Shown here: positions 1-25,298 of the stretch, one piece after another
How positions within the stretch are numbered: the stretch's first letter is position 1
How the letters are laid out: each line of letters opens with the position of its first letter
NCBI RefSeq assembly: GCF_029626035.1
Contig: NZ_JARUBE010000003.1
Coordinates: forward strand, 3,286,001 to 3,350,000
Direction: 5' to 3'
Source of the DNA: Micromonospora sp. WMMD980
GTDB lineage: Bacteria > Actinomycetota > Actinomycetes > Mycobacteriales > Micromonosporaceae
DNA length: 64,000 nucleotides
The notes under the pieces: model-generated
Seen by the model: only the letters and a program-made list of their open reading frames with translations
What the model was told of the DNA's origin: nothing
Databases searched by the model: none
Translations under genes and position numbers: made by a program

Positions 1-3000
1 CGCGAGCGGCCCGGCCTGACCCGCGACGGCACCATGCTGGCGATGGCCAGCTTCGCCTTCGACATGTCCGTGCCGGAGCTGTTCCTGCCGCTGGTGGTCG
101 GCGCCCGCATGCTGCTGGTGGACCGGGACGTCGCCTACGACGCGTCCCGGCTGGCCGCGCTGCTCGCCGCCGAGCGGGTCACGCTGGCCCAGGGCACGCC
201 GACGACCTGGCGGCTGCTGATCGAGTCCGGGTGGGCCGGAACCCCCGGGCTCACCGCGGTCTGCGGCGGCGAGGCGGTGCCCGCGCCGCTGGCCCGGCAA
301 CTGGCCGGCCGGGTCGACGCGCTGTGGAACCTGTACGGCCCGACCGAGGCCGCGGTCTGGGCCACCATGGACCGGGTCACCCCCGACGAGACCCGGCCCA
401 CGATCGGCCGGCCGATCGGCAACATGCGGGCGCACCTGCTCGACGCGGCGTCGCGTCCGGTCCCGGTCGGCGTGCCCGGCGAGATCCACCTGGGCGGGCC
501 GGGACTGGCCCGCGACTACCACGGCGACCCGGCGCTGACCGCCGCGCGTTTCGTGCCCGACCCGGACGGCGTCGGCCGGCTCTACCGCACCGGTGACCTC
601 GGCCGCCGGCTCGCCGACGGCCGGATCGAGTTCCTCGGGCGGGGCGACTCGCAGGTGAAGGTGCGCGGGTTCCGGATCGAGCTGGGCGAGATCGAGGCGG
701 TGCTGCGCCGCCACGACGTGGTCCGCGACGCCGCCGTGGTGGTCCGCGAGGACGCGGGCGAGAAGGCCGTGGTGGCCTACCTGACCCTGGCCGACGGGCC
801 CGAGCCCGACACCGGGAGCGAGCTGACCGCCGACTTCGCCGCCGACCCGGCGCCGTGGCGGGCGTTCGTGCGGGCCTGGCTGCCGGACTACATGGTGCCG
901 TCGGCGTTCGTGCCGCTGAACCGGATGCCGCTCAACGCCAACGGCAAGGTCGACCGGGCGGCGCTGCCCGCGCCCCGCCGCGACCGCGCGGCGGCCGGCG
1001 CCGGTGAGCCGGACACCCCGCTGCGGGCGGCGCTGGCCCGCCGCTGGGCGGAGGTGCTCGGCTACGACCGGGTCGGCATCGACGACGACTTCTTCGACCT
1101 GGGCGGCGACTCGTTCCGGGCGATCAAGGCGCTGGCCGGCAGCGACCCGGCGATCAGCGTGCTCGACCTGTTCCGCCATCCGACCATCCGGGCGCTGACC
1201 GAGCACCTGGACGCCACCGGCGGCTCGGCCGGGAAGCTGCTGCACGAGCTGACGCCGGCCCGGCCGGGCACGACGACCACGTTGACGCTGCTCTGCGTAC
1301 CGTTCGGCGGCGGCTCCGCGATCACCTTCCAGCCGCTCGCGGACGCCCTGCCGGCCGGGGTGTCGCTCTACGCGCTGGAACGCCCCGGGCACGACCTGAA
1401 CCGCCCGGACGAGCCGATGCTCGACCTGGACGAGCTGGTGGACCGCTGCGTGGCCGAGGTGGTCGGGCAGCTCACCGGGCCGGTCGCGGTGTACGGGCAC
1501 TGCGTGGGCGGCGCCGAGGCGGTCGAACTGGCCCGCCGCCTGGAGGCGGCGGGCGTCGAGGTGACCGGCGTGGTGATCGGCGCGCACTTCCCCGCCCCCC
1601 GGCTGCCCGGTCGGGTGTTCGGCTGGCTGCGCCGGTGGTTTCCGGTGGAGCGCTGGGCGTCGAAGCGGCGCACGCTGGAGTCGCTGCGCGCGATGGGCTT
1701 CTTCACCGAGGTCTTCGACGCGGCCGAGAAGGACTTCGTGATGCGGGTCGTCCTGGCCGACGCGGCCCGGGGCGAGGACTACTACACCGACGTCTACGCC
1801 GCCGGCCTGCCGGCGAAGCTGTCCGCGCCGCTGGTCTGCGTGGTCGGCGGCGGTGACCGGGCCACCGAGCTCTACCAGGAGCGCTACCTGGAGTGGGAGT
1901 TCTTCGCCGACCGGGTGTCGCTGGAGGTGATCGACGGCGCCGGGCACTACTTCGCCAAGCACCAGCCGGCCGAGCTGGCCGGAATCATCCTGGCGCACTG
2001 CGCCGCCGCGCCTGCGGAGCCGGACGGTTCCACCGCCGCACCGGAGCCGGCGGAGGCGGACCGGCGCGCCGCCGTACCCGCGTCGGCGCAGCCGGACGGG
2101 ACGGCCCGGACCGCTCCGGCGGCGGCGTCTCCGGCGGACGTCGCGCCCCGGCGGACGGCGGCGCCCAGCCTGGCGGTGTTCTATCTGGTCGCGATCGGCC
2201 AACTCGTGTCGCTGATCGGCAGCGGGCTGACCGCGTTCGGCATGGGGTTGTGGGTCTACCAGCGCACCGGCTCGGTGTCGCTGTTCGCCACCGCCACCGT
2301 GCTGGCGCTGCTGCCGGCCGTGGTGCTGTCACCGATCGCCGGCGCGCTCGCCGACCGGTGGGACCGCCGCCGGATCATGGTGCTGGCCGACTGCCTGGCC
2401 GCCACCGGCACGGTGAGCCTGGCGCTGCTGCTCTGGCTCGGTCAGCTCCACCTGTGGCACATCCTCACCGCGATCACCGTCACGGCCGTGGCCACCGCGT
2501 TCCAGCAACCCGCCTACCAGGCGGCGGTCACCCAACTCGTGCCGAAGCGCTACTACGGGCGGGCCAACGGCATCGTCTCGCTCGGCACCGCCACCAGCAC
2601 CGTGCTGGCCCCGCTGGTCGGCGGCGCGCTGGTGCTCGCGGTCGGGCTGCGCGGCATCGTGGTGATCGACCTGGTCACCTTCGCGGTCGCGGTCACCGTG
2701 ACGCTGTCGGTCCGCTTCCCGGACACGCTCTTCGTGCGCCGGGAGGAGCCGTTCCGGCGTGAGGTGCTGGGCGGCTGGCGGTTCATCGTCCGGCGGCACG
2801 GGCTGGTCGCCCTGGTCGTCCTGGTCGCGTCGCTGAACTACTTCTTCGCCATGGTCGAGGTGCTGGTCACCCCGCTGGCGCTCTCCTTCGGCGATCCGGC
2901 GGTGCTCGGCCGGGTGCTCGCCGCCAGCGGCGTCGGCATGGTCGTCGGGTCGGTGCTGATGGGCGTCTGGGGCGGCACCGCCCGGCGGACCACGGGCATC

Positions 3001-3513
3001 CTGGCCAGCGTCGTGCTGCTCGGCGTCTCGCTGCTCACCGTCGGGCTCCGGCCGGACCCGCTGTTCCCGGCGCTCGGCCTGTTCGGCATGGGCCTGGCCA
3101 CCGCGCTGGTGAACACGCACTGGCTGGCGATCGTGCAGGCCAAGGTGGGCCTCGAACTCCAGGGCCGGGTGCTCGCCATGGCCCAGATGCTGTCCTGGCT
3201 GATGGTGCCCGCCGGGTTCCTCAGCGCCGGGCCGCTCGCCGAGCACGTGCTCGCCCCGCTGGCCCGGCCCGGCGGCCCGCTCGCCGGGCTGGTCGGCACC
3301 GGGCCCGGCCGGGGCATGGCGCTGGCCGCGATCCTGGCCGGGCTCTGCGCGCTCGCGCTGGCCGCCGGCGGCATCGCGTACCGGCGGATCCGGCGGCTGG
3401 AGGACGAACTGCCGGACAACGACCCGGGCCGGGTCGTGCTCGCCGACAAGGACCGCATCCAGGAGGAGGCGGACCGCCGCCTCGCGGCCGTGACCGGCGG
3501 TGGTTCCCGGTGA
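1..3513 (+). CDS. NRPS (A-PCP-thioesterase) fused to MFS exporter, 5' partial
   Basis: Terminal part of a nonribosomal peptide synthetase, open at the left edge; 1170 residues visible. In order: the back two thirds of an adenylation domain (FDMS core, YGPTE, GELG, and the A10 motif NGKVDRAAL near residue 313); a carrier protein (LGGDS, residue ~369); an alpha/beta-hydrolase thioesterase (about 429-665); a Pro/Ala-rich linker; and an MFS permease of about 11-12 helices (about 724-1147). The thioesterase elbow reads GHCVGG (TGC codon at 1501), so the usual nucleophilic Ser is Cys; a GDR and a GAGH follow as candidate Asp and His. By hand alignment to GrsA the substrate code reads roughly D-M-P-Q-V-G-L-V-W-K, which I cannot assign. 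The fusion suggests release and export are tied together. The next gene overlaps by 4 nt (GTGA). Domain calls are secure; the substrate is unknown. Confidence 0.93.
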
Positions 3514-6500
3514 GCGCGCCCGCCCGGCCCGCCGGCCCGACCCGCCGCGCCGCCGCCCGCCGGGCCGGCCCCGCCCCGGCGCCGGTGGACTGCCTGCACC
3601 GGATGGTCGCCGCGCAGGCCGCCCGCACCCCGGCCGCGGACGCGGTCCGGCACGGCGACACCACGCTGTCCTACCGGGACCTCGACGAGGCGGCGAACCG
3701 GCTGGCCCGGGCGCTGCTGGCGCGGGGGGTCGGGCGCGGCGACCGGGTCGGCGTCTGCCTGCCCCGTACGCCGGAGCTGGTGGTCGCGCTGCTCGCGGTG
3801 CTCAAGGCCGGAGCCGCGTACGTGCCGCTGGACCCGGCGTACCCGGCGGCCCGGGTGGCGTTCATGACCGCCGACTCGGGGGCGCGGCTGGTGCTGACCA
3901 CCACCGGCCTCGCCGACCGGTTCCCCGGCCCGACCGTGCTCGTGGACCGGCTCGACCCGACCGGTGACGCCACCGACCCGGCGACGCCGGCCACCCCGGA
4001 CGACCTGGCGTACGTCATCTACACCTCCGGCTCCACCGGACGCCCCAAGGGCGTGGCCATCGAGCACCGCTCGGCGTCGACGCTGCTGCACTGGGTCCGG
4101 CAGACCTTCGACGACACCGAGCTGGGTGGGATGCTCGCCGCCACCTCGGTCTGCTTCGACCTCTCCGTCTTCGAGATCTTCGGCCCGCTCGCCTGGGGCG
4201 GCCGGGTGCTGCTCGTCGACGACGTGCTGGCGCTCGCCGCGCCGGGCGCGGACCGGCTGCCGGTCACGCTCGTCAACACCGTGCCGGCCGCGATGGGCGA
4301 ACTGCTCACCGCCGGGGCGCTGCCGCCCGGCGTCCGCACGGTCTGCCTGGCCGGTGAGCCACTGACCGCCGCGCTGGCCGCCCGGGTGTGGGCGCGTCCG
4401 CACGTGCGCCGGCTGTGCAACCTCTACGGCCCGTCCGAGGACACCACGTACTCCACCTGGGCCGAGGTGCCGCGCGACGGCGGTGACCCGCCGATCGGCC
4501 GTCCGCTGCCGGGCACCCGGGCGTACGTGCTCGACCCGGACGGGCGGCCGGTGCCGCCCGGCGAGGCGGGTGAGTTGTACCTGGCCGGCGCCGGGCTGGC
4601 CCGCGGCTACCTGGACCGGCCGGCGGAGACCGGGGCCCGGTTCCGGCCGGACCCGTTCCGGCCGGGCGAGCGGATGTACCGCACCGGGGACCGGGTCCGG
4701 TTGCGCCCGGACGGGCAGCTCGCCTACCTGGGCCGGCTGGACGACCAGGTGAAGCTGCGCGGCTACCGGATCGAGCTGGGCGAGGTGGCCGCCCGGCTCG
4801 CCGCCCTGCCCGGCGTGCGCGAGGCGACCGCCGCCGTCCGGCCCGGCCCGAGCGGGGACCCGCTGCTGGTCGGCTACCTGGTCGGGGACCGGCGCGACGA
4901 CGTCCGGGCCCGGCTGGCCGAGGTGCTGCCGGCGCCGCTGGTGCCGGCGGCCGTGGTCTGGCTGGACCGGCTGCCGACGCTCCCCAACGGCAAGGTGGAC
5001 CGGGCGGCCCTGCCCGCGCCGGACCTCGGCTCCGCCGCCGACCACGATTCGCTCGACGGCACCGCCGCCGTGGTGGCGGAGGTCTGGTGGGACCTGCTCG
5101 GGGTGCCGGTCACCGGCCCGGACGACGACTTCCTCGCGCTCGGCGGCGACTCGCTGCTGGCCGTCCGGTGCGCCACCCGGCTGACCGACGTGACCGGCCA
5201 CCGGGTCGACCCCGGCGACCTGTTCGCCCACCCGACCGTCGCCGCGCTCGCCGCCCGCCTCGACGCGCTCGCCCCGCCCCGGGGTGAACCGGCGCACCGG
5301 CCCGACGGTCCGGGCGCTGCCGGCCACCCGGCGGCCCGGCTCGACCCCGGGCCGGCAGCGGCCGGATCCCCGACCGGGGACGGGCCGGCGCCGCTGTCCG
5401 CGGCGCAGCGGCGGTTCTGGTTCCTGCACCGGCTCGACCCGGCCGACACGTCCTACCTGCTGGCGTTCGCGGTCCGCTTCGCCGCGCCACTGAAGGCGGA
5501 CCGGCTGACCCGGGCGCTGCACCGGGTGGTCGACAGGCATCCCGCGCTGCGCACCGTCCTCGCCGCCGGGCCGGACGGGCCGGTGCAGGTGGTCCGCCCG
5601 GACGCCCGACCGGACCTCGTCGTCGCGCCGCCCGAGCCGGGCACCGCGCTCGACGACCGGCTCGCCCGGCTGACCGCCGGGGCCACCGCCGACCCGATGG
5701 ACCTGGCGACCGGGCCGCTGCTGCGCGCCTGCCTGGTGCCCGACGCCGCCGGCCGGGCGGAGGCGCTGCTGCTGGTGGCGCACCACGCGATCGCCGACGA
5801 CTGGTCGTTCGGGGTGCTGGTGCGCGACCTCGCGGAGTCCTACGACGACCCGGACGCGCCCGCCGAGCCGGCGCCCGGGCCGGCCGTCCTCGCCGCCGCG
5901 CAGCACGCCTGGCTCGCCGGCCCCGCCGGCCGCCGCGCGCTCGACGAGCTGCTCCGCGAGCTGCGCGGCGCCCCCACCCTCCTGGAGATAAGGAGGGGCC
6001 CCCGCTTAACGCCTGCGGTAGAGCAGGGGCCCCCTGCTAACCACCCGGCCCGGCGCGGCGCCGCGCTGCGGACCACGGTGGACCTGACGACCGCGGCGGC
6101 GGTGCGGGAGCTGGCCCGGACGCGCCGGGTCAGTTTGCACATGGTGGGGCTGGCCGCGTTCGCCGCGCTGCTCGGCGCGGAAACCGGCCGGGACGACCTG
6201 CTGGTCGGTGTCGCCTTCGCCGGGCGCACCAGCGTGGCCGCCGAACGCGGCGTCGGGTGCCACGTCAACACGCTGCCGCTGCGCCTGCGCCCGGCCCCGG
6301 ACCGGAGCTTCGCCGACCTGCTCGCCGAGGCGCGTCGGGCCACGCTGTTCGCCGCCGCCCGCCAGGACGTCCCGTTCGACAGGCTTGTCGAGCGGCTGCG
6401 CCCGGTCCGCCGGGCGGACCGCAACCCGCTGGTGCAGGTCGCGTTCGGGGTGCAGAACGCCCCACCGGCCCGGCACCGCAGCGTCGCCGGCGGCGCGTTC

Positions 6501-6725
6501 ACCGGCGTCGAGCTGACCCCGGACACCGCCCGCCTCGACCTGACGCTCTGGCTGGACGACAGGCGCGGCGGGCTGGCGGCGCTCTGGACCTACCGCACCG
6601 ACCTGTGCGACCACGACACGGTGGCGGCCTGGCACCGCCGCCTCACCGCGCTGCTGCGCACCGCCGCCGCCGACCCCCGGCGCAGTCTGGCCGACTGCGT
6701 CGACACCGCTGGGAGTGAGAGATGA
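3510..6725 (+). CDS. NRPS, A-PCP-C (AmbB-like)
   Basis: Nonribosomal peptide synthetase of 1071 residues. The adenylation domain (about 25-510) has [11 protein letters not shown] near 170, YGPSE and [10 protein letters not shown] carrier protein (LGGDSL near 545) and a condensation domain (about 630-1065, HHAIADD near 758) follow. By hand alignment the specificity code reads about D-L-F-N-C-A-L-T-Y-K, close to alanine-type codes as I recall them (low certainty). The A-PCP-C layout, followed by two Fe/2OG oxygenases and a methyltransferase-containing NRPS, is that of AmbB, which activates alanine in AMB biosynthesis. It starts with GTG overlapping the previous stop and ends in an ATGA overlap. 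Oddity: a dispersed GC-rich repeat lies in frame inside the C domain at 5986-6041, adding about 18 residues after the HHxxxD motif. Confidence 0.94.
5986..6041. repeat. Dispersed GGGGCCCC repeat inside NRPS coding sequence
   Basis: Two GGGGCCCC cores lie about 30 nt apart, with TTAAC/GTTA-type ends. The reverse complement shares the GTTA..AGGGG..CCC..GCGTTAAGCGGGGGCCCCTCC layout with a second copy at 23636-23687. It is read in frame through the C domain without a stop. Probably a non-autonomous mobile or REP-like element of this genus (inference). Confidence 0.75.
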
Positions 6726-7765
6726 CCGATCAGATCCGGGTCGCGCGGCCCGTCCCCCGCCGCGGCCGGGAACGGAACCTGGTGGACGTACGACCGGACT
6801 GGCCCGGCGGCCCGCTGCCGGCGCTGGTGCGGGCCAATGTGCCCGACGTGGACCTGGCCGGCTGGCTGGCCGGGCACCGCGACGAGGTGGACGAGCTGGC
6901 CCGCCGCGCCGGCGCGGTGCTGTTCCGCGGCTTCGCGGTGGCCGGCGCGGACGACTTCCGCACCGTGATGGGCGCGCTCTCCGGCGACGTGCTGGCCTAC
7001 GGCGAACGGTCCTCGCCGCGCAGCCGGGTCGCCGACGGCGTCTACACCTCCACCGAACACCCGGCCGACCAGCCGATCGTGCTGCACAACGAGCAGTCGT
7101 ACACGGTCACCTGGCCGCTGCGCATCGTGTTCCACTGCGAGGTCGCGCCGGCCGCCGGTGGGCGTACGCCGCTGGCGGACAGCCGCCGGGTGTTGGCCCG
7201 GCTGCGCCCGGAGACGGTCGACGGGTTCGCGCGACGGGGCGTGCTCTACCGGCGCAACTACCTGCCCGGCATCAGCCTGTCCTGGCAGACCGCGTTCCAG
7301 ACCGACTCCCGTGCCGAGGTCGAGGCGTACTGCGCGCGGGCGCTGATCGACGTGGAATGGGTGGGCGAGACGCAGTTGCGCACCCGGCAGGTGCGCCCGG
7401 CGGTGCGACGGCACCCGGTCACCGGGGAACGCACCTGGTTCAACCACGCGTTGTTCTTCCACGTCACCTCGCTGCCGGCGGACGTGAGCGCCGGGCTGCG
7501 GGCGGCGCTGGCCGATGAGGACCTGCCCTACCAGACCGCGTACGGCGACGGCACGCCCATCGGAGACGACGTGCTGGCCGAGCTGCGCGCCGCGTACGCC
7601 GCGGAGACCCGCTCGTTCGACTGGCACGAGGGGGACGTGCTGCTGGTGGAGAACATGCTCGCCGCGCACGCCCGGGAGCCGTTCACCCCGCCCCGGCGGA
7701 TCCTCACCGCGATGTCCGACCCGGTCGCGGCGCCGGAGCTGCACACCGAGGACGGTGCGTCATGA
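6722..7765 (+). CDS. TauD/SyrP-like Fe(II)/2-oxoglutarate oxygenase (AmbC/AmbD-like) 1
   Basis: Non-heme iron, 2-oxoglutarate-dependent oxygenase of 347 residues. The iron-binding triad is visible as HNE (near residue 121) and the distal His in AAHAREPF (near 318), followed by the 2OG-binding Arg region. The stretch between HNEQSY and GGRTPLADS is typical of the SyrP/AmbC branch that hydroxylates amino acids bound to NRPS carrier proteins. ATG overlaps the upstream stop (ATGA), and the next gene overlaps in the same way, so translation is coupled. In the AMB pathway two such enzymes act on the glutamyl residue on the carrier protein; the same role is inferred here. The site of oxidation cannot be read from sequence. 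Confidence 0.92.
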
Positions 7766-8781
7766 GCGCCCCCGGACCCCGCCGCCGTGCCGCTGGTGGC
7801 ACGGTCACCGCGCCGGTGACCCGCCGCACGCTCGGCCCGGACGACTTCGTGCTGCTTGTCGAGGCCGCCGTGCCCGACCTCGACCTGGCCGGCTGGCTCG
7901 CCGGGCGGCGGGCCGAGCTGCTGGCCGACCTGGACCGGCACGCCGCGGTCTTCTTCCGCGGCTTCGACGTGCGCAGCGCCGACGACTTCGGCCGGGCGGC
8001 CCGGGCGGTCGGCCCGGACCTGCTCGGCTACCTGGAGCGGGCCGCGCCCCGGCACGAGGTGGCCGACAAGGTGTTCACCTCCACCGAGTTCAACGCCGCC
8101 CAGTGGATCCCGCTGCACCACGAGATGTCGTACTCGCACAACTGGCCGACGCACCTCTACTTCCACTGCGCGCAGCCGGCCACCGGCAGCGGCGGCGCGA
8201 CCCCGCTGGCCGCCGAGCGGGTGATCACCCCGTTGATCCCGGCGGAGGTGCGGGAACGGTTCGCCCGCGACGGCGTCCGCTACGTGCGCAACTACGGCCC
8301 GCACCTGGACCTGCCCTGGCAGGAGGCGTTCCAGACCACCGACCGGGCGGCGGTGGAGGCATACTGCGCCGCCTCGGCGACGGAGTTCACCTGGCTGGGC
8401 GCCGACGGGCTGCGGACCGTGGCGCGGCGGCAGGCGACGGCCGTCCACCCGCGTACCGGCGAGACGGTGTGGTTCAACCACGCCCACCTGTTCCACGTGT
8501 CGAACATGCCGCCCGAGGTGGCCGCCGCGCTGAGACGCGAGTACGGCCCGGAGGGGCTGCCCCGCAACGCCCACTACGGCGACGGCGAGCCGATCGAGGA
8601 CGAGGTGGTCGGCGGCATCCGCGAGCTGTACCGGCAGCACGCGATCTCCGTGCCCTGGCGGCGCGGCGACGTGCTGGTGGTGGACAACTTCCTGGCCACC
8701 CACGGCCGGGAACCCTTCACCGGCGACCGGCAGATCCTGGTCGCCATGTCCGACCTCTACGTCAACCGGAGTGTGTGGTGA
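7762..8781 (+). CDS. TauD/SyrP-like Fe(II)/2-oxoglutarate oxygenase (AmbC/AmbD-like) 2
   Basis: Second oxygenase of the operon, 339 residues, clearly paralogous to the preceding one (shared [11 protein letters not shown]-terminus, FFRGFDV versus LFRGFAV, and matching metal motifs). The metal ligands are HHE in PLHHEMSY (near 115) and His in ATHGREPF (near 313). Both genes sit between the AmbB-like and AmbE-like synthetases, as ambC and ambD do in Pseudomonas. Start and stop overlap the neighbours by 4 nt (ATGA upstream, GTGA downstream). Two successive oxidations of one carrier-bound residue is the likely role (inference from the amb system). Confidence 0.92.
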   Translation: MSAPGPRRRAAGGTVTAPVTRRTLGPDDFVLLVEAAVPDLDLAGWLAGRRAELLADLDRHAAVFFRGFDVRSADDFGRAARAVGPDLLGYLERAAPRHEVADKVFTSTEFNAAQWIPLHHEMSYSHNWPTHLYFHCAQPATGSGGATPLAAERVITPLIPAEVRERFARDGVRYVRNYGPHLDLPWQEAFQTTDRAAVEAYCAASATEFTWLGADGLRTVARRQATAVHPRTGETVWFNHAHLFHVSNMPPEVAAALRREYGPEGLPRNAHYGDGEPIEDEVVGGIRELYRQHAISVPWRRGDVLVVDNFLATHGREPFTGDRQILVAMSDLYVNRSVW

Positions 8782-11700
8782 ACGGATACCGGCTGTCCCC
8801 GGTCCAGCGGCTGGCCTGGGCCGGCAAACAGGATCTGGTCCGGGCCCGGGTGCGGCTGGACCGGCCGCTCGATGCGGCCCGGTTGCAGGCCGCCGTGGAC
8901 GCGGTGGTGGCCCGGCACGAGGCGCTGCGGCTGACCCTGGTGCACCACCCGGGCCTGCGGGTGCCGTTGCAGGACGTGGACGACGACCGGACCGTCACCG
9001 TCGGCGCGCAGGGCGAGCTGTCGGTGACGCTCACCGACGACGCGCTGGAGCTGGCCGCCACCCCGCTGGTCGCCGACCCGGCCAGCCTGCGCCTGGTCCT
9101 GGCCGACCTGGCCGGGGCGTACGCGGGTGACCTGCCGCCGGCCGACGAGGAGGCGTTGCAGTTCCTCGACGTCACCGAGTGGCAGGTGGAGGAGCGGGAC
9201 GCCGCGCCGGCGCCCGCGCCGGTCGCCCCGGCCGCCCGGCTGGTCGAGCCGCACGGTGACGACCCGGGCGCGGTGGTCACCGGCACGCTGCCCGCCGCCG
9301 ACCTGGCCGGCATCGCCGAGGCCGCCGGTTGCCCCGCCGAGACGGTGCTGCTGGCCGCCTGGGCGGTCGCGGTCGCCCGCCGGGCCGAGGCGCCGGACGG
9401 GGCCGAGGAGTCGGACCTGGTGCTGGCCCGCTGGCACGACGGCCGCCGGGCCGAGGGCACCGCCGCCGTGGTCGGTCCGCTGGGCGGCTACGGCCCGCTG
9501 CGGCTGGCCCTGCCGCTGCCGGCCGCGCCGGCCGAGCTGCTGGCCGCCGTACGCGCCGCCGAGGCCGCCGCCGACGAGACGTTCCACCTGGTCGACCCGG
9601 TCGACGACAGCACCGGCGCGGTCGCCGGGTTCGCGGTGCAGCCGACGGTCGCACCGGACACCCTCGCCGCCCTGGGCGCGGTGACCGCCGAGGTGCCCGT
9701 CCCGCCGCCGCCGACCGGCCCCCGGCTCACCGTGCTCACCGGCGACGGCACCGGCGACGGCGAGGGCGACGGCGACGGCGAGGGCGACGGCGACGGCGAG
9801 GGCGACGGCGACGGCGAGGGCGACGGCATCGGCACCGGCGAGGGCGAGGTCACGCTCCGGGTCACCGGCGGGCAGTGGCTGCTCGACTCGCTGGTGGCGG
9901 TGCTGCGCAGCCTGCCGGCCGCGCTGGCCGGGGACGCGCCGCTGGCGGTGCTCGGCGCCGGCGAGGCGAGCTGGCTGTCCGGGGCCGGCGGAACGGCGGC
10001 CACGGCGCCGGCGCGTACCCTCGCCGACCTGCTCGACGCCGGCCTGGCCACGATGGCGGCGCAGGCCCCGGCCGTGGTGGCGGCGGACGGCGCGTACCCG
10101 GTCGAGGAGCTGGACCGGCGGGCCGCGCGGGTGGCCGCGGCGCTCGCCGCGCGCGGCCTGACCGGCGCGCCGGTGGGCGTGCTCGCGACCCGGTCCCGGG
10201 AGACCGTGGTGGCGTTCGTCGGCGTGCTGCGGGCCGGCGCGGTGTTCGTGCCGCTCGACCCGGACGCCCCGGCGCCACGCCTGGCCGCGCAGGTGCGCGC
10301 GGTCGGCGCGGAGTGCGTGATCGGCCTCGGCGGCCCGGCGACCGTGTCCGTGGACGAGCTGGTCGCGGCCGGCGGCCCGCCGCCGGCGGCGCCGGCCCCG
10401 ACCGACCCGGCGTACGTCATCTTCACCTCCGGCTCGACCGGCACGCCGCGGCCGGTGCGGGTGTCGCACGCCGCCGCCGCGCACCTGACCGGCGCGCTGG
10501 AGGAGACGGTGTACGCGAGCAGCCCGCCCGGCCTGCGGGTGGCGGTGAACGCGCCGCTGACGTTCGACGCCTCGGTGAAGCAGCTCGTGCAACTCGCGCA
10601 CGGGCGCGGCCTGTTCCTGGTGCCGGAGGGCGTGCGGCGCGACGGCGCGGCGCTCGCCGGCGCGCTGGCCGCGCACCGGGTGGACGTGCTCGACCTGACC
10701 CCGTCGCAACTGCGGATCCTGCTCGCCGGCGCGGGGGACGCCCGGCTGCCCGGGCTGCTGCTGCTCGGCGGCGAGGCCGTGCCCGAGGACCTGTGGGCCG
10801 AGGTGGCGGCGCTGCCGGGCGTGCGCGCGGTCAACCTCTACGGCCCGACCGAGTGCACGGTGGACAGCACCGCGGCGGAGATCCGGGCCGGCGACCCACC
10901 GACGATCGGCCGGCCGCTGCCGGGCGTCGCGGTGCGGGTGCTCGACGAGCGGCTGCGCCCGGTGCCGCCCGGCGTGGCCGGGGAGCTGTGTGTGGCCGGC
11001 CCGCAGCTCGCCGACGGCTATCTCGGCGACGAGGAGGCGACCGCCCGCCGGTTCGTGGCGCTGCCGCTGCCCGACGGCGGCGTCGAGCGGGTCTACCGCA
11101 CCGGTGACCGGGTCCGCTTCGACGCCGAGCGGCGGTTGCGCTACCTGGGTCGGCTCGACGACCAGGTGAAGATCCACGGTTTCCGGGTGGAGCCGGGCGA
11201 GGTCGCCGCCGTGCTGCGCGGCCACCCGGAGGTCGCCGACGCCGCGGTGGTCGCCCGCGACGACGACGGGTACGGCGACCGGCTGGTGGCCTACGTCCGG
11301 CCCCGTGCCGGCGCCGCGCTGGACCTGACCCGGGTCACCGGGATCAACCCGCACGAGACCCGCTACCTGTACGACGAGATCTTCACCCAGCGGGTCTACC
11401 TCCGGGACGGGATCGTGCTGCGCCCCGGCGCGACGGTGCTGGACGTGGGCGCGAACATCGGCATGTTCTCGCTCTTCGTGCACCAGGTCTGTCCGGACGC
11501 GACGATCCACGCGTTCGAGCCGGTGCCGACCGTGGTGGAGGCGTTGCGCCGCAACGTCGCCGAGTTCGGCGTGCCGGCCACGGTGCACGCGCACGGGCTG
11601 TCCCGGAAGCCCGGCGAGGTCTCGTTCACCTACTACCCGGGCTATTCGATGATGTCCGGCCACGCCGCGTACGCCGACCCGGACGCCGAGATCGGCGTGA

Positions 11701-14138
11701 TCAAGCGGTACCTGGCCAACGAACGCGACGCCGGCGCGGGTGAGCGGGACGTGCTGCTCGACCGGGCCGACGAGCTGCTCGCCGAGCGCTTCGCCGGCCG
11801 GGAGCTGACCGTGCCGGTCCGACCGCTGTCGGCCGTGCTCGACGAGCTGGCACCGGCCCGGATCGACCTGTTGAAGATCGACGTGCAGCGCGCCGAGGCG
11901 GACGTCCTGGCCGGACTGGACGACCGGCACTGGCCGCTGGTCGCGCAGGTCGCCATGGAGGTGCACGACGCGCCGGGCACCGCCACCGCCGGCCGGTTGG
12001 CCGAGCTGGTGGCGGTGCTGGAGGAGCGGGGCTTCACCGTGGTCACCCGCCAGGACGACCTACTGGCCGGCACCGACCGGCACACCCTGCACGCGGTCCG
12101 CCCGGAGTACGCCGCCACCTCGGACGCGGTGGCGGACACCGCCCCGGCGACCGGATCCGTCGCGCCGCCCCGGGAGTGGCTCGCCGAACGGCTGCCGGCG
12201 CACCTGGTGCCGGCCGCGGTGGTGGTGCTGGACGAGCTGCCGCTGACCCGCAACGGCAAGCTCGACCGGGCGGCGCTGCCCGCGCCCGCACCGGAGCGAC
12301 CGGCCGGCGACCCGGCGGCGACACCCGCGAACCGGGCCGAGGAGATCCTGGTCGAGGCGTGGCGCGAGGTGCTCGGCGTGGCCACGTTCGGCGTGACGGA
12401 CAGCTTCTTCGCGCTCGGCGGCGACTCCATCCGCAGCATCCAGATGCAGGTGGCGGCGCAGAAGCGCGGGCTGTCGTTCCAGCTCAACGACATCTTCACC
12501 CACCAGACCATCCGGGAGCTGGTGGCGCACGGCCGGATCACGCTGGACGGCGTCGTGCCCGAGCCGGCCGCGGACCAGGGGCGGTTCGCCCTGGTCGGCG
12601 CCGCCGACCGGGAGCGGCTGCCGGACGGGCTGGCCGACGCGTACCCGATGACCGCGCTCCAGCTCGGCATGGTCTACCACGGCGAGCTGACCGGCGACCC
12701 GGCCGTCTACCACAACGTCACCGCGCACGAGGTGGCCGCGCCGCTGGACTCCCCGGCGCTGCGCCGGGCGCTCGCCGCGCTGGTGGACGCGCACCCGGTG
12801 CTGCGCACCGGCTTCGCGCTCGGCGCGTACGCCGAGCCGTTGCAGCTCGTGCACGCGCGGGTGCCGGTCGACCTGCCGGTGACGGACCTGACCGGCCTCG
12901 ACGCGCCGGCCCGCCGGGCCCGGATCGACGCGCTGGTCGCCGAGGAGCGCCGCCGCCCGTTCGACCTCACCCGGCCGCCGCTGTTGCGGCTGCACGCGGT
13001 CCGCACCGGCGGCGACGGGTTCACGCTGCTGGTCGCCGAGCACCACGCCGTCCTCGACGGCTGGAGCCTGCACCTGTTCCTGGCCGACCTGCTCGCCGGG
13101 TACGACCGGGAGCGGGCCGGCACGCCCGCGCCCATCGACGCCGGGCTGCCGTTCCGGGAGTACGTGGCGGCCGAGCGGGCGGCGCTGGCCGACCCGGCGA
13201 CCCGCCGGTTCTGGCTGGACGGCGCCGGTGCCGCGGCGCCGCTGCTGGTCGGTGGCGCACGGCCGCGGACCACCACCACCCAGCGGGTGCCGCTGCGGGC
13301 CGGCACCACCGAGCGGGTCGCCGCTGGCGCCCGGGACGCCGGGGTGCCGGTCAAGTCCTGGCTCTTCGCCGTGCACCTGCGGCTGCTCGGCGAGCTGGCC
13401 GGCCGGGACGACGTGGTCAGCGGCCTGGTCGTCGGCGGCCGGCCGGAGGGCGAGGGCAGCGCCGACACGCTCGGGCTGTTCCTCAACACGCTGCCGGTGC
13501 GCATCGCGCTGGGCAGCCGGTCGGTGGCCGAGCTGGCCGCCGAGGCGTGGCGGGCCGAGCGGGAGCTGATGGGACGCCACCGCTTCCCGCTCGCCGAGAT
13601 CGTCCGGGCCGGCGGCGCGGGTCCGCGCTTCGACCACTTCTTCAACTGGACGCACTTCCCGCCGCCGCGTCCGGCCGGTGACGGCAGCCGCATCGTGGAC
13701 AGCCGGGGCGTCACCGTGGACGTCGCGTTCAGCCTCGCCGTCGACGCCGAGCTGGACGCCGGGCGGCTCGGGCTGATGGTCCAGTACGACCACCGGCACG
13801 TCCCGGCCGACCGGGTGGACGCGTTGGCCGACGGCTTCCGCCGGTTGCTGGCGGCCGACCCGGACGCGCCGCTGCCGTCGGTGGCCGCACCGTCGCCGGT
13901 GGCCGCCGAGGACGCGCGGCAGCGGTGGGCGGGCCGGGTGGCGGCGGCCTGGCAGGAGGTGCTGGGCACCGCGCCACGCGACCCGGAGGCCGGCTTCCTC
14001 GCCGCCGGCGGCGACTCGCTGCGCGCGCTGCGGCTGGTCACCGTGCTGCGCCAGCGCCACGGCAGCGACCTGACGCTGCCGGAGTTCACCACGCTGGGCA
14101 GCTACCGCGCGCTGGTGGACCGGGTGGCGCGCGGATGA
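8778..14138 (+). CDS. NRPS, C*-A(methyltransferase)-PCP-C-PCP (AmbE-like)
   Basis: Synthetase of 1786 residues starting at a GTG that overlaps the upstream stop; the longer open frame upstream is a shadow of the oxygenase gene. Residues 1-320 look like a worn condensation domain (LSPVQRLAW start, but VADPASL where HHxxxDG should be). A low-complexity Gly/Asp/Glu tract follows (about 322-357). The A domain (about 411 onward, FTSGSTGTP near 548) is interrupted after GFRVEPGEV by an FkbM-like methyltransferase (about 852-1110, VLDVGANIGMF and LLKIDVQRAE) and resumes to NGKLDRAAL (~1158). Then PCP (LGGDSIRS ~1213), C (HHAVLDG ~1423) and a final PCP (GGDSLRA ~1744) without its own A domain or thioesterase. 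The hand-aligned specificity code D-A-K-D-L-G-L-V-D-K is near identical to glutamate codes. AmbE has this layout plus a terminal thioesterase; here release probably falls to the TE of the first gene. Confidence 0.94.
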   Translation: MNGYRLSPVQRLAWAGKQDLVRARVRLDRPLDAARLQAAVDAVVARHEALRLTLVHHPGLRVPLQDVDDDRTVTVGAQGELSVTLTDDALELAATPLVADPASLRLVLADLAGAYAGDLPPADEEALQFLDVTEWQVEERDAAPAPAPVAPAARLVEPHGDDPGAVVTGTLPAADLAGIAEAAGCPAETVLLAAWAVAVARRAEAPDGAEESDLVLARWHDGRRAEGTAAVVGPLGGYGPLRLALPLPAAPAELLAAVRAAEAAADETFHLVDPVDDSTGAVAGFAVQPTVAPDTLAALGAVTAEVPVPPPPTGPRLTVLTGDGTGDGEGDGDGEGDGDGEGDGDGEGDGIGTGEGEVTLRVTGGQWLLDSLVAVLRSLPAALAGDAPLAVLGAGEASWLSGAGGTAATAPARTLADLLDAGLATMAAQAPAVVAADGAYPVEELDRRAARVAAALAARGLTGAPVGVLATRSRETVVAFVGVLRAGAVFVPLDPDAPAPRLAAQVRAVGAECVIGLGGPATVSVDELVAAGGPPPAAPAPTDPAYVIFTSGSTGTPRPVRVSHAAAAHLTGALEETVYASSPPGLRVAVNAPLTFDASVKQLVQLAHGRGLFLVPEGVRRDGAALAGALAAHRVDVLDLTPSQLRILLAGAGDARLPGLLLLGGEAVPEDLWAEVAALPGVRAVNLYGPTECTVDSTAAEIRAGDPPTIGRPLPGVAVRVLDERLRPVPPGVAGELCVAGPQLADGYLGDEEATARRFVALPLPDGGVERVYRTGDRVRFDAERRLRYLGRLDDQVKIHGFRVEPGEVAAVLRGHPEVADAAVVARDDDGYGDRLVAYVRPRAGAALDLTRVTGINPHETRYLYDEIFTQRVYLRDGIVLRPGATVLDVGANIGMFSLFVHQVCPDATIHAFEPVPTVVEALRRNVAEFGVPATVHAHGLSRKPGEVSFTYYPGYSMMSGHAAYADPDAEIGVIKRYLANERDAGAGERDVLLDRADELLAERFAGRELTVPVRPLSAVLDELAPARIDLLKIDVQRAEADVLAGLDDRHWPLVAQVAMEVHDAPGTATAGRLAELVAVLEERGFTVVTRQDDLLAGTDRHTLHAVRPEYAATSDAVADTAPATGSVAPPREWLAERLPAHLVPAAVVVLDELPLTRNGKLDRAALPAPAPERPAGDPAATPANRAEEILVEAWREVLGVATFGVTDSFFALGGDSIRSIQMQVAAQKRGLSFQLNDIFTHQTIRELVAHGRITLDGVVPEPAADQGRFALVGAADRERLPDGLADAYPMTALQLGMVYHGELTGDPAVYHNVTAHEVAAPLDSPALRRALAALVDAHPVLRTGFALGAYAEPLQLVHARVPVDLPVTDLTGLDAPARRARIDALVAEERRRPFDLTRPPLLRLHAVRTGGDGFTLLVAEHHAVLDGWSLHLFLADLLAGYDRERAGTPAPIDAGLPFREYVAAERAALADPATRRFWLDGAGAAAPLLVGGARPRTTTTQRVPLRAGTTERVAAGARDAGVPVKSWLFAVHLRLLGELAGRDDVVSGLVVGGRPEGEGSADTLGLFLNTLPVRIALGSRSVAELAAEAWRAERELMGRHRFPLAEIVRAGGAGPRFDHFFNWTHFPPPRPAGDGSRIVDSRGVTVDVAFSLAVDAELDAGRLGLMVQYDHRHVPADRVDALADGFRRLLAADPDAPLPSVAAPSPVAAEDARQRWAGRVAAAWQEVLGTAPRDPEAGFLAAGGDSLRALRLVTVLRQRHGSDLTLPEFTTLGSYRALVDRVARG
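9741..9849. repeat. In-frame 18-bp tandem repeat in NRPS linker
   Basis: About four copies of an 18-bp unit (GGCGACGGCGACGGCGAG) with degenerate flanks, encoding alternating Gly-Asp and Gly-Glu. It lies between the degenerate C domain and the A domain. The unit length is a multiple of three, so copy-number change would only alter linker length. Confidence 0.85.
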
Positions 14139-15307
14139 CCGGGTTCGGCACCACAGCGGTGCACGGCGACGACGGCCTGGTCCCCGGCGGGGCGGTCGCG
14201 CCGCCGATCGTGCAGAGCGCCACCTTCAGCGCCGAGTCCGACGAGCGGTTCGCCGAGATCGCCACCGAGGCGCGCGGCAGCACGTTCTACACCCGCTACG
14301 GCAACCCGAACCACGCGCAGGTGGCCGCCGTGGTCGCCGGACTGGAGGGCGCGGAGACCGGGCTGGTCACCGCGTCCGGGATGGGCGCGATCAGCACTGT
14401 CGCGCTGGCGCTGCTCGCCGCCGGCGACCACGTGGTGGTGCAGCGCAGCACGTACGGCGGCACCACCTCGCTGGCCACCGGGCTGCTGCCACGCTTCGGC
14501 GTGGACTGCACCCAGGTCGACCAGACCGACTCCGACGCGTTCGCGCGGGCGCTGCGGCCGGAGACCCGGCTGGTGCTGGTGGAGACGCCGAGCAACCCGC
14601 TGCTGGAACTGACCGACCTGGCCGCCGTCGTCGAGGTGGCGCACGCGGCCGGCGCGCTGGTGGTGGTGGACAACACGTTCGCCACCCCGGTGAACCAGCG
14701 TCCGCTGGCGGCCGGCGCGGACCTGGTCTGGCACAGCGGCACGAAGTTCCTCGGCGGGCACTCCGACGTGTCCGCCGGGGTGGTGGTCGGCGGCGCGGAG
14801 CTGGTCGAGCGGGTGTGGCGCACGTCGATCGTCACCGGCGCCACGCTCGGCCCGGTGGACGCCTGGCTGCTGCTGCGCGGCCTGCGCACCCTGTCGCTGC
14901 GGGTGGAGCGGCACAACGCCAACGCGCTCGCCCTGGCCGAGGCGTTGGCGGACCACCCGGCGGTGGCCCGGGTCCGCTACCCGGGGCTGCCCTCGCACCC
15001 CCAGCACGAGCTGGCCCGGCGGCAGATGACCGGGTTCGGCGGGGTGCTCGGCGTCGAGCTGGCCGCCGGCCGGGACGGCGCGGCGGCGCTGCTGGCCGGG
15101 TTGCGCCTGGCCAAGCGGGCGGCCAGCCTCGGCAGCGTCAGCACGCTGGTGGTGCACCCGCGCTCGATGTGGGCCGGGATCGTGGACGCCGAGCAGCTCG
15201 CCGCGGCCGGGATCGGCGCGGGCCTGGTGCGCGTCTCCACCGGCATCGAGGACACCGACGACCTGGTGGCGGACTTCCTGGCGGCGTTGGCGGACGCGCC
15301 GGCCTGA
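14135..15307 (+). CDS. PLP-dependent gamma-family enzyme (methionine gamma-lyase / cystathionine gamma-synthase type)
   Basis: Fold-type I PLP enzyme of 390 residues in the Cys/Met metabolism family. YTRYGNPN near residue 50, GMGAIS, VVDNTFATP, and the cofactor lysine in HSGTKFLGGHSD (near 206) are all present. The start is the ATG that overlaps the NRPS stop (ATGA), so it is the last gene of the biosynthetic operon. It could supply or process a gamma-substituted amino acid. Alternatively it could be a tolerant copy of a PLP enzyme: vinylglycine antimetabolites such as AMB, AVG and rhizobitoxine inactivate PLP enzymes, including cystathionine-type enzymes. Sequence alone does not separate gamma-lyase from gamma-synthase. 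The stop lies only 4 nt from the convergent photolyase gene. Confidence 0.9.
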   Translation: MTGFGTTAVHGDDGLVPGGAVAPPIVQSATFSAESDERFAEIATEARGSTFYTRYGNPNHAQVAAVVAGLEGAETGLVTASGMGAISTVALALLAAGDHVVVQRSTYGGTTSLATGLLPRFGVDCTQVDQTDSDAFARALRPETRLVLVETPSNPLLELTDLAAVVEVAHAAGALVVVDNTFATPVNQRPLAAGADLVWHSGTKFLGGHSDVSAGVVVGGAELVERVWRTSIVTGATLGPVDAWLLLRGLRTLSLRVERHNANALALAEALADHPAVARVRYPGLPSHPQHELARRQMTGFGGVLGVELAAGRDGAAALLAGLRLAKRAASLGSVSTLVVHPRSMWAGIVDAEQLAAAGIGAGLVRVSTGIEDTDDLVADFLAALADAPA

Positions 15308-15311: not shown

Positions 15312-16754
15312 TCAGGGCGCCTCGTCGCCGCGCTTCTCCTCCTGCGCCAGCACCGCGTCGCGGCGCTGCGGGTCGGCGCGCTCGGCCAGCTCGGCGGCGA
15401 GGCGCGGGTCGGCCGCGAGACGCTCCCGGTTGCGGTGCAGGAACGCCTCGAAACCACCGGTGTACGGGCACGCGTCGTCGCCGAGCGTCTCCTTCGGCAC
15501 GTACCGGCAGCCGCCGCAGGGTGCGCCGATCCGGTCCAGGTGCGCGCCGTCGAACGCCCACGGGTGGGTGTCGATGCGGGCCAGGTCGGCGTACTGGCTC
15601 ATGCCGATGACGGTGGCGTTCATGACCCAGTCGGCGCCGTCGACGAAGCTGCGCCGGAACCAGTCGGCCAGCTCGGTGGGGCGCCAGCCGCGTTGCAGGC
15701 CGTAGTTGCCGAGCACGGTCAGCCGCGCGGTCTGGTGCGCCCACCCGGTGTCGCGTACGCCGGCGAGCACGTCGGCGAGGCAACGCGCCTCCACCGCGTC
15801 GGCGTCGAGCCGGTCGAACCACCCGGGCAGCGGCCGGTTCGCGCCGAGCCAGCCGGCGCCCCGGTAGCGCGGCTCGAAGTACCAGTAGAGCTGCCACAGG
15901 AACTCGCGCCAGCCGAACAGTCCGCGTACGAACCGGTGCACCGCCGCCGGCGGCGCGGCGCCGGTGCGGCCGGCGCGCTCGGCGGCCCGGATCGCGGGTT
16001 CCGGGTCGAGCAGGCCGAGGTTGAAGGAGGACGACAGCACGCTCCGCGCGAGCAGGCCGTCGCCGAGCACGCCGTCGGTGTCGGCGTACGCCGGCAGCCG
16101 GTGGTCGAGGAAGTGGGTGAGCCGGGCCCGCGCCTCGGCGTGCGTGGCCGGGTAGCGGCGCGGGGCGTCCCGGCCGACGAACCGGATCCCCTCGGCCTGC
16201 CAGCGGTCGAGGTCCCGGCGCACCTGCGCGTCGATGTGGTCCTCGACGATCGGCGGCGGCGCCGGCACCTCGGCCGGGGTGCGGTGGCGCGGGCGGCGCG
16301 CCGGGACGGGCAGGTCCCGCAGCACGCCGTGCCGGCCCCGCGCGTACCGGTAGAAGTCGGCCATCCGGAGCTGGCCGCGCCGCCGGTCGGCCCAGGCCGC
16401 GAAGTCGGCCCGGTCGGTGACGAAGCCGCGCGGCGGCAGCACGGTCAGCCCGTCGACGGTACGGGCGAACGCGAGCGCCGCCCGCGACGACGGGTGCACC
16501 ACCTCGACCGGCTCGCCCAGGGCGGTGAGCGCCTCGCGGAAGGTGTCGGCGCGGACCAGGCGCGCCCGGTCGCCGAGCTCCGCCGCCCGGTGTCGCAGCG
16601 CGGACAGGATCAGGTGTGCCTTCTGCCGGTGCAGCGGCCGGTGGGCGAACAGCGCCCGGGTCTCCACCAGCAGGACGCGTTGCGCGTCGTCGTCGAGGAA
16701 GTGGGGACCCACCTGGTCCGCCAGGAGCCAACGCCAGGGTGACATGTCCATCAT
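15312..16754 (-). CDS. FeS-type bacterial cryptochrome/(6-4) photolyase-like protein
   Basis: 480-residue flavoprotein of the photolyase-related family (PhrB/CryB type). The N-terminal Rossmann domain starts WRWLLADQVG, and the C-terminal helical FAD domain contains GWREFLWQLYW, WAHQTARLTVLGNYGL and a GMSQYAD segment. Four Cys are spaced as in FeS-BCPs: one near residue 325 and three in PCGGCRYVP...DACPYT near 413-430, so a 4Fe-4S cluster is expected. Predicted role: light-dependent repair of (6-4) photoproducts or blue-light sensing. The start follows MMDM; ATG codons occur at 16754, 16751 and 16745 and cannot be separated. It lies 16 nt downstream of the winged-helix regulator on the same strand, so the two are probably cotranscribed. 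Confidence 0.88.
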   Translation of the reverse strand: MMDMSPWRWLLADQVGPHFLDDDAQRVLLVETRALFAHRPLHRQKAHLILSALRHRAAELGDRARLVRADTFREALTALGEPVEVVHPSSRAALAFARTVDGLTVLPPRGFVTDRADFAAWADRRRGQLRMADFYRYARGRHGVLRDLPVPARRPRHRTPAEVPAPPPIVEDHIDAQVRRDLDRWQAEGIRFVGRDAPRRYPATHAEARARLTHFLDHRLPAYADTDGVLGDGLLARSVLSSSFNLGLLDPEPAIRAAERAGRTGAAPPAAVHRFVRGLFGWREFLWQLYWYFEPRYRGAGWLGANRPLPGWFDRLDADAVEARCLADVLAGVRDTGWAHQTARLTVLGNYGLQRGWRPTELADWFRRSFVDGADWVMNATVIGMSQYADLARIDTHPWAFDGAHLDRIGAPCGGCRYVPKETLGDDACPYTGGFEAFLHRNRERLAADPRLAAELAERADPQRRDAVLAQEEKRGDEAP

Positions 16755-16770: not shown

Positions 16771-17388
16771 TCAGCCGCCGCGCACGCTCGGTCGACGGTG
16801 GTCGGTCAGCCGTAGGCCGACGCCGCGCACCGCGACGACGGTGACCCCGGTGCCCAGCTCGCCGAGCTTCCGGCGCAGCCGTTTGACCAGGGACTGCACG
16901 TCGGCGCGGTGCCGGGTCGGTGCGTCGTGCCAGACCGCGCGGTGCAGCTCGGCGTAGCCCCACACCCGCACCGGCTCGGTGGTCAGGCAGGTGAGCAGGT
17001 CGCGTTCCAGCCGGGTGAGAGCGACCTCCCGGTCGCCCCAGCGGGCGGTGGACCGGGCCGCGTCGATCACCAACGCGCAGTCCGGCGGGGGCCCGGGGGT
17101 GTCAGGCGGGGGCCCTCGCCTGACATCCTCCCCCGGGGCGATCAACTCGCGCAGCTCGTCCAGGTCGGCGACCAGTAGCAGCGGGGCCACGCCGTCCAGC
17201 AGCTCGGTGAGCCGTAGCCGCTCGGCCGGGGACGGCGTCACGCCGATGACGAGCGAGAAGGGGCGCTCCGCCGGGTCGGTGCCGGCGGAGGCCGCGTTCG
17301 TGTCGTCTGCTGCCACCGCGCCCCCACCGTGACAATGACTGTCAACCAGGTCCTCGATCAGTAAACCTGTTGGTGACAAGTTGCTCAC
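16771..17388 (-). CDS. Winged-helix (OmpR/PhoB-type) DNA-binding regulator 1
   Basis: 205 residues. The C-terminal half is an OmpR-type winged helix (LTRLERDLLTCL, VWGYAELHRAVW, VQSLVKRLRRKLGEL, VVAVRGVGLRL). The N-terminal half is not a standard receiver: SLVIGV followed by a degenerate alpha/beta segment without a phospho-Asp pocket. It is paralogous to the regulator at 22148-22768 on the other side of the S8 protease gene. A 46-bp palindromic element (17092-17137) is read in frame between the two halves. A GTG at about 17314, preceded by GGTGGGGG, is an alternative start that would put the TGACA-N5-TGTCA dyad in the promoter. Signal unknown. Confidence 0.8.
   Translation of the reverse strand: MSNLSPTGLLIEDLVDSHCHGGGAVAADDTNAASAGTDPAERPFSLVIGVTPSPAERLRLTELLDGVAPLLLVADLDELRELIAPGEDVRRGPPPDTPGPPPDCALVIDAARSTARWGDREVALTRLERDLLTCLTTEPVRVWGYAELHRAVWHDAPTRHRADVQSLVKRLRRKLGELGTGVTVVAVRGVGLRLTDHRRPSVRGG
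17092..17137. repeat. Large palindrome inside regulator coding sequence
   Basis: Nested inverted repeat: outer arms CCCGGGGG/CCCCCGGG and inner perfect 9-bp arms TGTCAGGCG/CGCCTGACA around GGGGCCCT. It encodes the Pro/Gly-rich linker of the winged-helix protein without breaking the frame. Its GGGGCCC core recalls the other dispersed repeats here, but it is not the same sequence. Confidence 0.75.
17330..17344. promoter_or_regulatory. TGACA-N5-TGTCA dyad (candidate operator)
   Basis: Perfect 5-bp inverted repeat with a 5-bp spacer, between the divergent winged-helix regulator and the S8 protease. It lies in the 5' coding region of the regulator if the 17388 start is right, or in its leader if the GTG near 17314 is used. 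Confidence 0.35.
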
Positions 17389-17574
17389 GTGCGGTCATTG
17401 ATCGCCCATTGGTGTCGATCATAGTGTCCACACAGGTGACCGGCGTAGACCCGCACGGCGCCTAGGGGGCCTGGGGGTTCGTCTCAAACCGGTGTGACCA
17501 GTCGGGAGCGCATGCTCCTGGCCCTTCTGTCATGGCTCGATCATCCGCGGGTCGTCCTCAAGGAGGCAGCACCG

Positions 17575-25143: not shown

Positions 25144-25298
25144 GCTGCGCGAACGCGAGCACCCGGATGAACCCGACACCCCGCACGCCACACCCCCACT
25201 ATCGCGGCTACGGCCCGTCGCGGCGGGACGGGATGCGCGGTTGGGTGGCTCCGTTCCGGGTACGGCGGCAGGGTCACCGCAACCGAGGAGGCCCCGCC

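Follow-up and report, generated by a model that had tools for sequence, protein, structure and literature searches.

An AMB-type biosynthetic cassette predicted to feed a larger peptide-polyketide assembly line in Micromonospora sp. WMMD980

What would an actinobacterium make with a set of genes resembling those that build L-2-amino-4-methoxy-trans-3-butenoic acid (AMB), a methoxyvinylglycine, in Pseudomonas aeruginosa? The question is raised by an operon of Micromonospora sp. WMMD980 lying at one end of a stretch of 64,000 nucleotides, hereafter the window (contig NZ_JARUBE010000003.1, G000:C3:3286001-3350000, of a 6.83 Mb genome), in which a sequence-only reading had placed an AMB-like operon starting at position 3510, with AMB or a small AMB-containing peptide as its implied product. 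Our answer, to which we give a probability of roughly 60%, is that the AMB-type cassette serves as the opening section of a longer assembly line, its product being passed to a hybrid synthetase encoded immediately upstream. Judged from the sequence, this is an actinobacterium with chemistry of the AMB type that is apparently coupled to a larger peptide-polyketide line.

The cassette and its likeness to the Pseudomonas amb clusters

All parts of the operon lie on the forward strand of the window, as established by Pfam and a check of the open reading frames. Their order is synthetase, AmbB-like, AmbC-like, AmbD-like, AmbE-like and pyridoxal phosphate (PLP) enzyme, about 23.9 kb altogether, and consecutive genes are joined by 4-nt overlaps (GTGA or ATGA), including the junction between synthetase and AmbB-like gene at 3513. 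The part order read earlier from the letters, i.e., A-T-C, TauD, TauD, A(MT)-T-C-T with 4-nt overlaps (A, adenylation; T, carrier; C, condensation; MT, methyltransferase), was confirmed throughout. The operon, however, does not begin at 3510, as it is preceded, with a 4-nt overlap, by a gene for a hybrid nonribosomal peptide synthetase-polyketide synthase (NRPS-PKS) running from about -8591 to 3513. Its 3′ part (1..3513, forward strand; Pfam, DNA identity of locus and window, start candidates) codes for the remainder of the last A domain, a T domain, a thioesterase (TE) and a major facilitator superfamily (MFS) transporter. The start is probably a GTG at G000:C3:3277409 (window -8591), some 8.6 kb ahead of the window, the alternative being an ATG 18 nt downstream of it; a scan of the start candidates found no clear ribosome site at any of them. 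Such a unit is not the work of chance, since it is kept in many genomes.

The cassette opens with an AmbB-like NRPS of A-T-C type (3510..6725, forward strand; Pfam), followed on the same strand by two Fe(II)/2-oxoglutarate oxygenases of the TauD type, AmbC-like (6722..7765) and AmbD-like (7762..8781), both assigned by Pfam, tree and motif. The fourth gene (8778..14138, forward strand; Pfam, PDB, residues, code) encodes an AmbE-like NRPS consisting of a degenerate C-like N-terminal domain, an A domain with an FkbM methyltransferase insert, a first carrier (T1), a dehydrating C domain and a second carrier (T2). A-domain codes were read for 37 sources, with code positions set by what we take to be the GrsA numbering. 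The AmbB-like A domain carries the Ala-like code DLFNCALTYK in 31 of 31 cassette rows, in line with the earlier alanine-like reading, and the AmbE-like A domain the Glu-like code DAKDLGLVDK in 32 of 32, identical to the one aligned by hand; the codes predict Ala for the AmbB-like protein and Glu for the AmbE-like A domain, and neither reads as anything else. The Ala-like A domain also matches, in one stretch, the A domain of McyA with 454 bits, against 320 for the better of two LgrA domains, and the McyA module in question presumably takes Ala. Six further sources were read for the AmbB-like code: two Pseudomonas loci (DLYNNALTYK), three plasmid loci with other codes (L109, L110 and L013, in our numbering of loci), and genome G257, whose contig ends within the AmbB-like gene and has no AmbB-like A domain, its match being its own Glu domain. 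Elsewhere the AmbE-like code is DSKDLGLVNK (the two Pseudomonas loci) or DSKDLGVVNK (Rhizobium), with other codes in L110 and L013.

As comparators we used loci of Pseudomonas mangiferae (L112) and Pseudomonas sp. RIT-PI-AD (L113), together with the 7r9x chain of AmbE, the 80 loci at hand including none from P. aeruginosa. The C domains of L112 and L113 are 62% identical to AmbE 7r9x, and L112 reads A-T-C and A-MT-T-C-T-TE by Pfam. In homology searches with every tested domain, the cassette parts match L112 and L113 in the same order, at identities (L112/L113) of 53/52% for the Ala A domain, 52/52% and 55/55% for the first and second TauD, 42/41% for the Glu A domain, 47/44% for the methyltransferase and 41/40% for the C domain. 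In a tree of 36 TauD proteins from 21 chosen sources, each cassette oxygenase falls with its Pseudomonas counterpart, with supports of 98/95 for the first TauD and 100/99 for the second; measured against these two Pseudomonas comparators, the two oxygenases are orthologues of AmbC and AmbD. The HxE...H motif is kept in 31 of 31 rows of either protein. When the 80 loci (up to 21 kb, some of them short) were scanned at a limit of 1e-8, 14 proved to combine the C domain with a pair of TauD genes and the methyltransferase next to it, two of Pseudomonas and 12 of Micromonospora.

The best PDB match of the AmbE-type dehydrating C domain (12606..13910, forward strand; PDB match, residues, tree) is AmbE 7r9x (270 bits; 44-45% identity), the dehydrating C domain of the microcystin synthetase McyA coming second with 242 bits; McyA itself is not known to go with oxygenases or methoxyvinylglycine chemistry. 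Five residues have been reported as essential in the dehydrating C domain of AmbE, namely H1497, R1605, D1726, D1734 and Q1747. All but R1605 are identical in 31 of 31 cassette C domains, our own included, and E1736 is kept in 26. As a control, the second dehydrating-type C domains of the genomes called lineage 2 below carry N, E, E and H at those four positions (4/4). A branch with 99% support sets AmbE, the two Pseudomonas domains and eight cassette domains apart from 68 other such domains, in a quick tree whose outgroup branch is long, of which we use the split and not the root, and from which 12 Micromonospora loci were omitted as near-duplicates; a very long Rhizobium row stands near AmbE, its placement being unsure. 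This signature, kept in most of its residues, together with the part order of Pseudomonas, the orthology of the oxygenases and the Ala and Glu codes, bears out the homology to the amb pathway (AmbA-AmbE of P. aeruginosa) first proposed from the letters of the window; even the extra N-terminal domain of AmbE has its counterpart. No other characterised pathway emerged as the match of the core proteins, with the caveat that the C domain of the AmbB-like protein has better PDB matches than AmbB.

The likeness is not complete. Unlike the protein of P. mangiferae, which has a TE, the AmbE-like protein of the window ends after T2, and in 29 of 31 rows the end comes 0-13 residues past the T2 match, with no TE; in the other two (G314 and G027) the T2 query found no match. 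At L100:335-6919, in G314, the AmbE-like protein has a second T by Pfam, followed by some 450 residues matching no listed family, and an ornithine/lysine N-monooxygenase gene lies nearby. No LysE-type AmbA turned up in a scan confined to the operon and its flanking genes, which hold an MFS domain instead. Other differences from amb are the overlap with an NRPS-PKS-TE-MFS gene, the extra PLP enzyme and the replacement of R1605 by Lys.

The N-terminal domain of the AmbE-like protein (8778..9962, forward strand; AlphaFold2, Foldseek, site alignment) corresponds to the AmbE domain named Q, with function unknown, in a review. An AlphaFold2 model of its approximately 390 residues, built from 20 sequences including that of P. 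mangiferae (pLDDT 78), gave 50 listed Foldseek matches, all NRPS condensation or X domains or synthetases holding them. The position of the HHxxxDG site reads ATPLIADPASLR and similar, and it has no His in 30 of 31 rows (those with printed variants), both active-site His being lost. From the model, which bears on this open detail of AmbE, we take the domain of the AmbE-like protein for an inactive condensation-type domain, which could perhaps act as a platform for the oxygenases, by analogy with X domains and P450s.

Occurrence in the family and the two ends of the operon

A search of 354 genomes of the family with the C domain found the cassette type in one piece, at no less than 69%, in 29 genomes (our own included), in two pieces in G244, and at 46-48% in three more; neighbourhoods were examined for 32 of these 33, G244 being left out. 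Lineage 1 comprises 24 genomes, including ours, with C domains at 77% or above. The order synthetase-B-C-D-E-PLP is complete in 19 of them, the other five being cut by contig ends with the remainder in order. Lineage 2 (G264, G186, G227, G232 and G246) has the same cassette, followed by one or two thioesterase-type stretches, by further NRPS genes whose codes are Thr-like and Ser-like in all five, and by the PLP enzyme; the lineage-1 synthetase was not seen in the lineage-2 DNA taken. In G264 (Micromonospora sp. C31, L094:5541-19493) these are A-T, T-C and A-T-C-T-TE proteins, with AzlC and CN-hydrolase genes after them. L094 and its four relatives also hold the other dehydrating-type C domain, with different active-site residues in the four read. 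Lineage 3 (G209, G314 and G027) carries the same cassette codes beside other NRPS genes. One and the same cassette thus occurs in no fewer than three assembly-line settings, and it looks portable.

At the upstream end, the whole synthetase reads C-A-T-KS-AT-T-C-A-T-TE-MFS by Pfam on the long open frame (KS, ketosynthase; AT, acyltransferase). The first C domain stands at the N-terminus of the likely protein, with no loading module before it, and its best PDB matches are elongation C domains. The gene, TE and MFS included, reads through as a single open frame in 22 of the 23 rows (our own among them), G243 having a frame break. In the lineage-1 rows reaching the respective domain, the first A code is DLTKVGEVGK (21/21), which we take to be Asn-like, and the last is DMPQVGLVWK (23/23). 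Gly would be a weak assignment for the latter: a Gly code fits partly, but the aligned residues of the second A domain of LgrA disagree with that code.

The synthetase TE finds ObiF1 of the obafluorin synthetase as its best PDB match, with 148 bits against 86 for the next, and ObiF1 is first by fold also (model pLDDT 65 with a poor lid, so that the sequence is what we rely on). All 23 rows keep its Cys elbow (GHCxGG), late Asp (GDRAT) and His (GHYF). In those passages of PMC6668435 and PMC11298585 from which the TE strand positions were taken, the cysteine and the moved Asp are the marks of the beta-lactone- and beta-lactam-forming TEs ObiF and SulM, and by these residues the synthetase TE is of the ObiF cysteine type. 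Unlike ObiF, it is placed between a PKS-NRPS stretch and an MFS transporter, with no sign of a beta-hydroxy last residue. A tetramate-forming closure would be as reasonable as a lactone, since the chain is expected to end in a keto-C2-amino acid. The 'new release, export' parts expected by the sequence-only reading were right in kind, i.e., an ObiF-type thioesterase fused to an MFS transporter, but their place is the upstream gene. No TE-MFS fusion appeared in the literature titles and abstract openings searched, which leave subscription journals mostly uncovered.

At the downstream end, the PLP enzyme (14135..15307, forward strand; Pfam, PDB, distribution, tree) belongs to the Cys/Met metabolism class of cystathionine gamma-synthase, gamma-lyase and methionine gamma-lyase. 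The window protein has the Schiff-base Lys, YTR and YG motifs; the Lys motif is kept in 24 of 28 rows, the other four being gaps, and the catalytic motifs are kept wherever a row reaches. After the YG motif position, 27 of 28 rows have YGGT and not Cys (the other is a gap), and the active-site Cys in question is what we take to mark methionine gamma-lyase proper. Three other long matches of the family in our own genome are 39-44% identical to the operon enzyme. At E <= 1e-120 it is found in 43 of the 354 genomes: all 30 of lineages 1 and 2 (G244 included), seven more Micromonospora, and six genomes of other genera at 64-67%, whose genes group in the PLP tree with two lineage-2 genes (two of the five being complete enough to include). 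Among the seven Micromonospora, G155 and G241 have cassette remnants, G220, G247, G174 and G211 have none within the stretch taken, and G222 is known from the PLP search alone. The loci L215 and L216 (G241) and L212 (G155) are decaying cassettes with AmbB-like remnants and the PLP gene left, G241 also having a second-oxygenase fragment and an in-frame stop in its PLP gene. The enzyme goes with the cassette but occurs without it too.

What such an enzyme does here is a matter of tentative judgement. According to PMC4357302, PLP enzymes of bacteria, animals and plants are inactivated by AMB and other oxyvinylglycines, and because of this inactivation we put self-protection as the first guess, with a chance slightly under even, and tailoring of the product as the second. 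Tailoring could claim the 4-nt overlap with the AmbE-like gene, the conservation of the motifs and the presence of the enzyme in two assembly-line contexts. Yet the enzyme persists where the cassette has decayed or is unseen in the stretch taken, a pattern more in keeping with protection or a general role, and we consider tailoring unlikely.

The predicted product and its rivals

The pathway that we propose would start with the loading of Ala by the AmbB-like protein and of Glu, on T1, by the AmbE-like A domain. The two oxygenases would hydroxylate the carrier-bound Glu at C3 and C4, the inserted methyltransferase would methylate the C4 oxygen, and Ala would be added by the AmbB-like C domain. 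The AmbE-type C domain would then dehydrate, with loss of CO2, leaving Ala-AMB on T2. These first four steps have their predicted enzymes and signatures by homology, with chemistry known from P. aeruginosa, and an AMB-type residue is very probably made. The first C domain of the synthetase would next take Ala-AMB, and the synthetase would add an Asn-like residue, a malonyl-type C2 unit, which would stay a ketone as there is no ketoreductase, and a last residue. The hand-over to this domain is suggested by the absence of a TE from the AmbE-like protein, and from architecture and synteny we hold it to be probable. Finally, the cysteine thioesterase would free the chain, probably as a ring (a tetramate or another strained or cyclic form), the fused MFS transporter would export it, and the PLP enzyme would protect the producer from free AMB or act on AMB; ring type and product are conjectural, as are these last two steps. 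The end product is probably not AMB or a small AMB peptide, as had been implied, because the AmbE-like protein has no TE and a second assembly line needing a donor is present. The loading of the second carrier in trans with a third Ala, also assumed earlier, belongs to an older model, the product having later been assigned as Ala-AMB.

Several observations weigh against this pathway. It is predicted from sequence alone, with no compound assigned to the operon. The synthetase-first order of the genes is not collinear with the proposed chemistry, and docking domains were not identified, no dedicated tool having been applied. The AmbB-like C domain is closer to several other C domains in the PDB than to AmbB, whose entry 7x0e is eighth of 16 matches (132.6 bits; best 180). 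ObiF-type TEs close beta-lactones from a beta-hydroxy residue, and the code DMPQVGLVWK has no clear substrate. In all 31 cassette C domains Lys replaces R1605 of AmbE, and D1728 gives way to Ala in 30 and to Gly in one. The PLP enzyme, in turn, occurs in the seven Micromonospora genomes with no intact cassette found and in the six of other genera, and is not found at E <= 1e-120 in the three of lineage 3.

A first alternative is that the operon makes two products: the synthetase would make an unrelated compound, and the cassette would yield free Ala-AMB, cut loose either by another hydrolase or, in trans, by the cysteine TE. Ala-AMB is the end product in Pseudomonas, and in lineage 2 the one or two separate thioesterase-type stretches after the AmbE-like gene mean that release there could be in trans. 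Nevertheless, a synthetase with no loading module and an elongation-like first C domain speaks against independent products, and so does the pairing of the two halves, which overlap by 4 nt in the window, in each of the 24 lineage-1 genomes examined as far as contigs reach; we hold two products to be improbable. It is quite improbable too that the residue is a related but different one, e.g., a methoxylated, dehydrated or dihydroxylated glutamate that keeps its carboxyl group, or another enol ether. The substitutions at R1605 and D1728 and the modest identity of the C domain to AmbE (44-45%) would agree with this, whereas all the catalytic parts and four of the five essential residues are kept, and the Pseudomonas comparators have the same part order. 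That the synthetase takes another starter (a fatty acyl or an outside peptide), with Ala-AMB joining later or never, draws on the hand-over from T2 being a prediction and on the lack of an identified docking domain, but we find it highly improbable, as no other operon gene offers a donor carrier and the first C domain matches those of elongation modules best.

Related loci, neighbouring genes and significance

Some plasmid loci share parts of the cassette. With the same queries, only one of four, that of Rhizobium rhizoryzae, has both TauD, the methyltransferase and the C domain (29%), with a TE; it is an unannotated amb-like cluster (L109:3707-13836) of an A protein, two TauD and A-MT-T-C-T-TE. 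The plasmid of Streptomyces sp. NBC_01361 (L013:17983-19979) has both oxygenase orthologues, at 71% and 68%, with no match to the AmbE-type methyltransferase in the 37 kb taken and with GNAT, desaturase, diaminopimelate decarboxylase-like and M28 peptidase genes adjoining; dihydroxyglutamate may be used there in another pathway. That of Streptomyces sp. NBC_00015 (L110:1056-14142) carries NRPS genes along with TauD, FkbM methyltransferase, M20 metallo-hydrolase, carbamoyltransferase and P450, a set distantly related to the cassette in which a peptide may be cleaved. In the Klebsiella pneumoniae plasmid pC696_1 (L018:6831-15296), NRPS genes stand with a TauD 44% identical to the first oxygenase and with a CoA-ligase-like protein, an aminotransferase and a phosphopantetheinyl transferase, an annotation that is not that of the amb cassette.

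Amongst described systems, threopeptin (sna) of Stackebrandtia is likewise an actinobacterial NRPS-PKS with one KS-AT-T module, and its gene list, in the part of PMC11212132 that gives it, has neither the oxygenases nor an AmbE-type protein; identity with the sna cluster was rejected on account of these different parts. No actinobacterial AMB cluster was found in the same search of titles and abstract openings.

The genes flanking the operon seem foreign to it. Downstream, on the reverse strand, Pfam finds a deoxyribodipyrimidine photolyase-related protein (15312-16754) and a winged-helix regulator (16771-17388). Their membership was considered and rejected, good matches near the cassette occurring only in the close relatives G230, G271, G286, G235 and G190, of which G271 has no more than a fragment of the first gene; elsewhere there are weak regulator-type matches. 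Upstream, the genes scanned, including those adjoining the synthetase, are Ig-like, P450-like and sensor-type genes on the opposite strand, and their membership was rejected also. Further into the window, 17494-21966 codes for a large protein with subtilase, carboxypeptidase-regulatory and Kelch repeats, and 24112-25347, on the reverse strand, for a sigma-70 type factor fused to a SnoaL-like domain.

In conclusion, this genus, common in soil, seems to use the AMB-type residue as a building block of a larger molecule that is exported, with a four-gene cassette reused in several contexts. We give an even chance to the wider proposition that the cassette is a portable warhead module that at least three actinobacterial lineages plug into different lines, with lineage 1 making approximately Ala-AMB-Asn-C2-X, extended, cyclised by ObiF-type ring closure and exported by a single chain. 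The two oxygenases, the A-MT-T-C-T protein with no TE and the invariant codes provide a handle for genome mining and point to an undescribed compound family whose members would share the predicted warhead; with them, one could also examine why it is as a protected peptide that AMB is produced.

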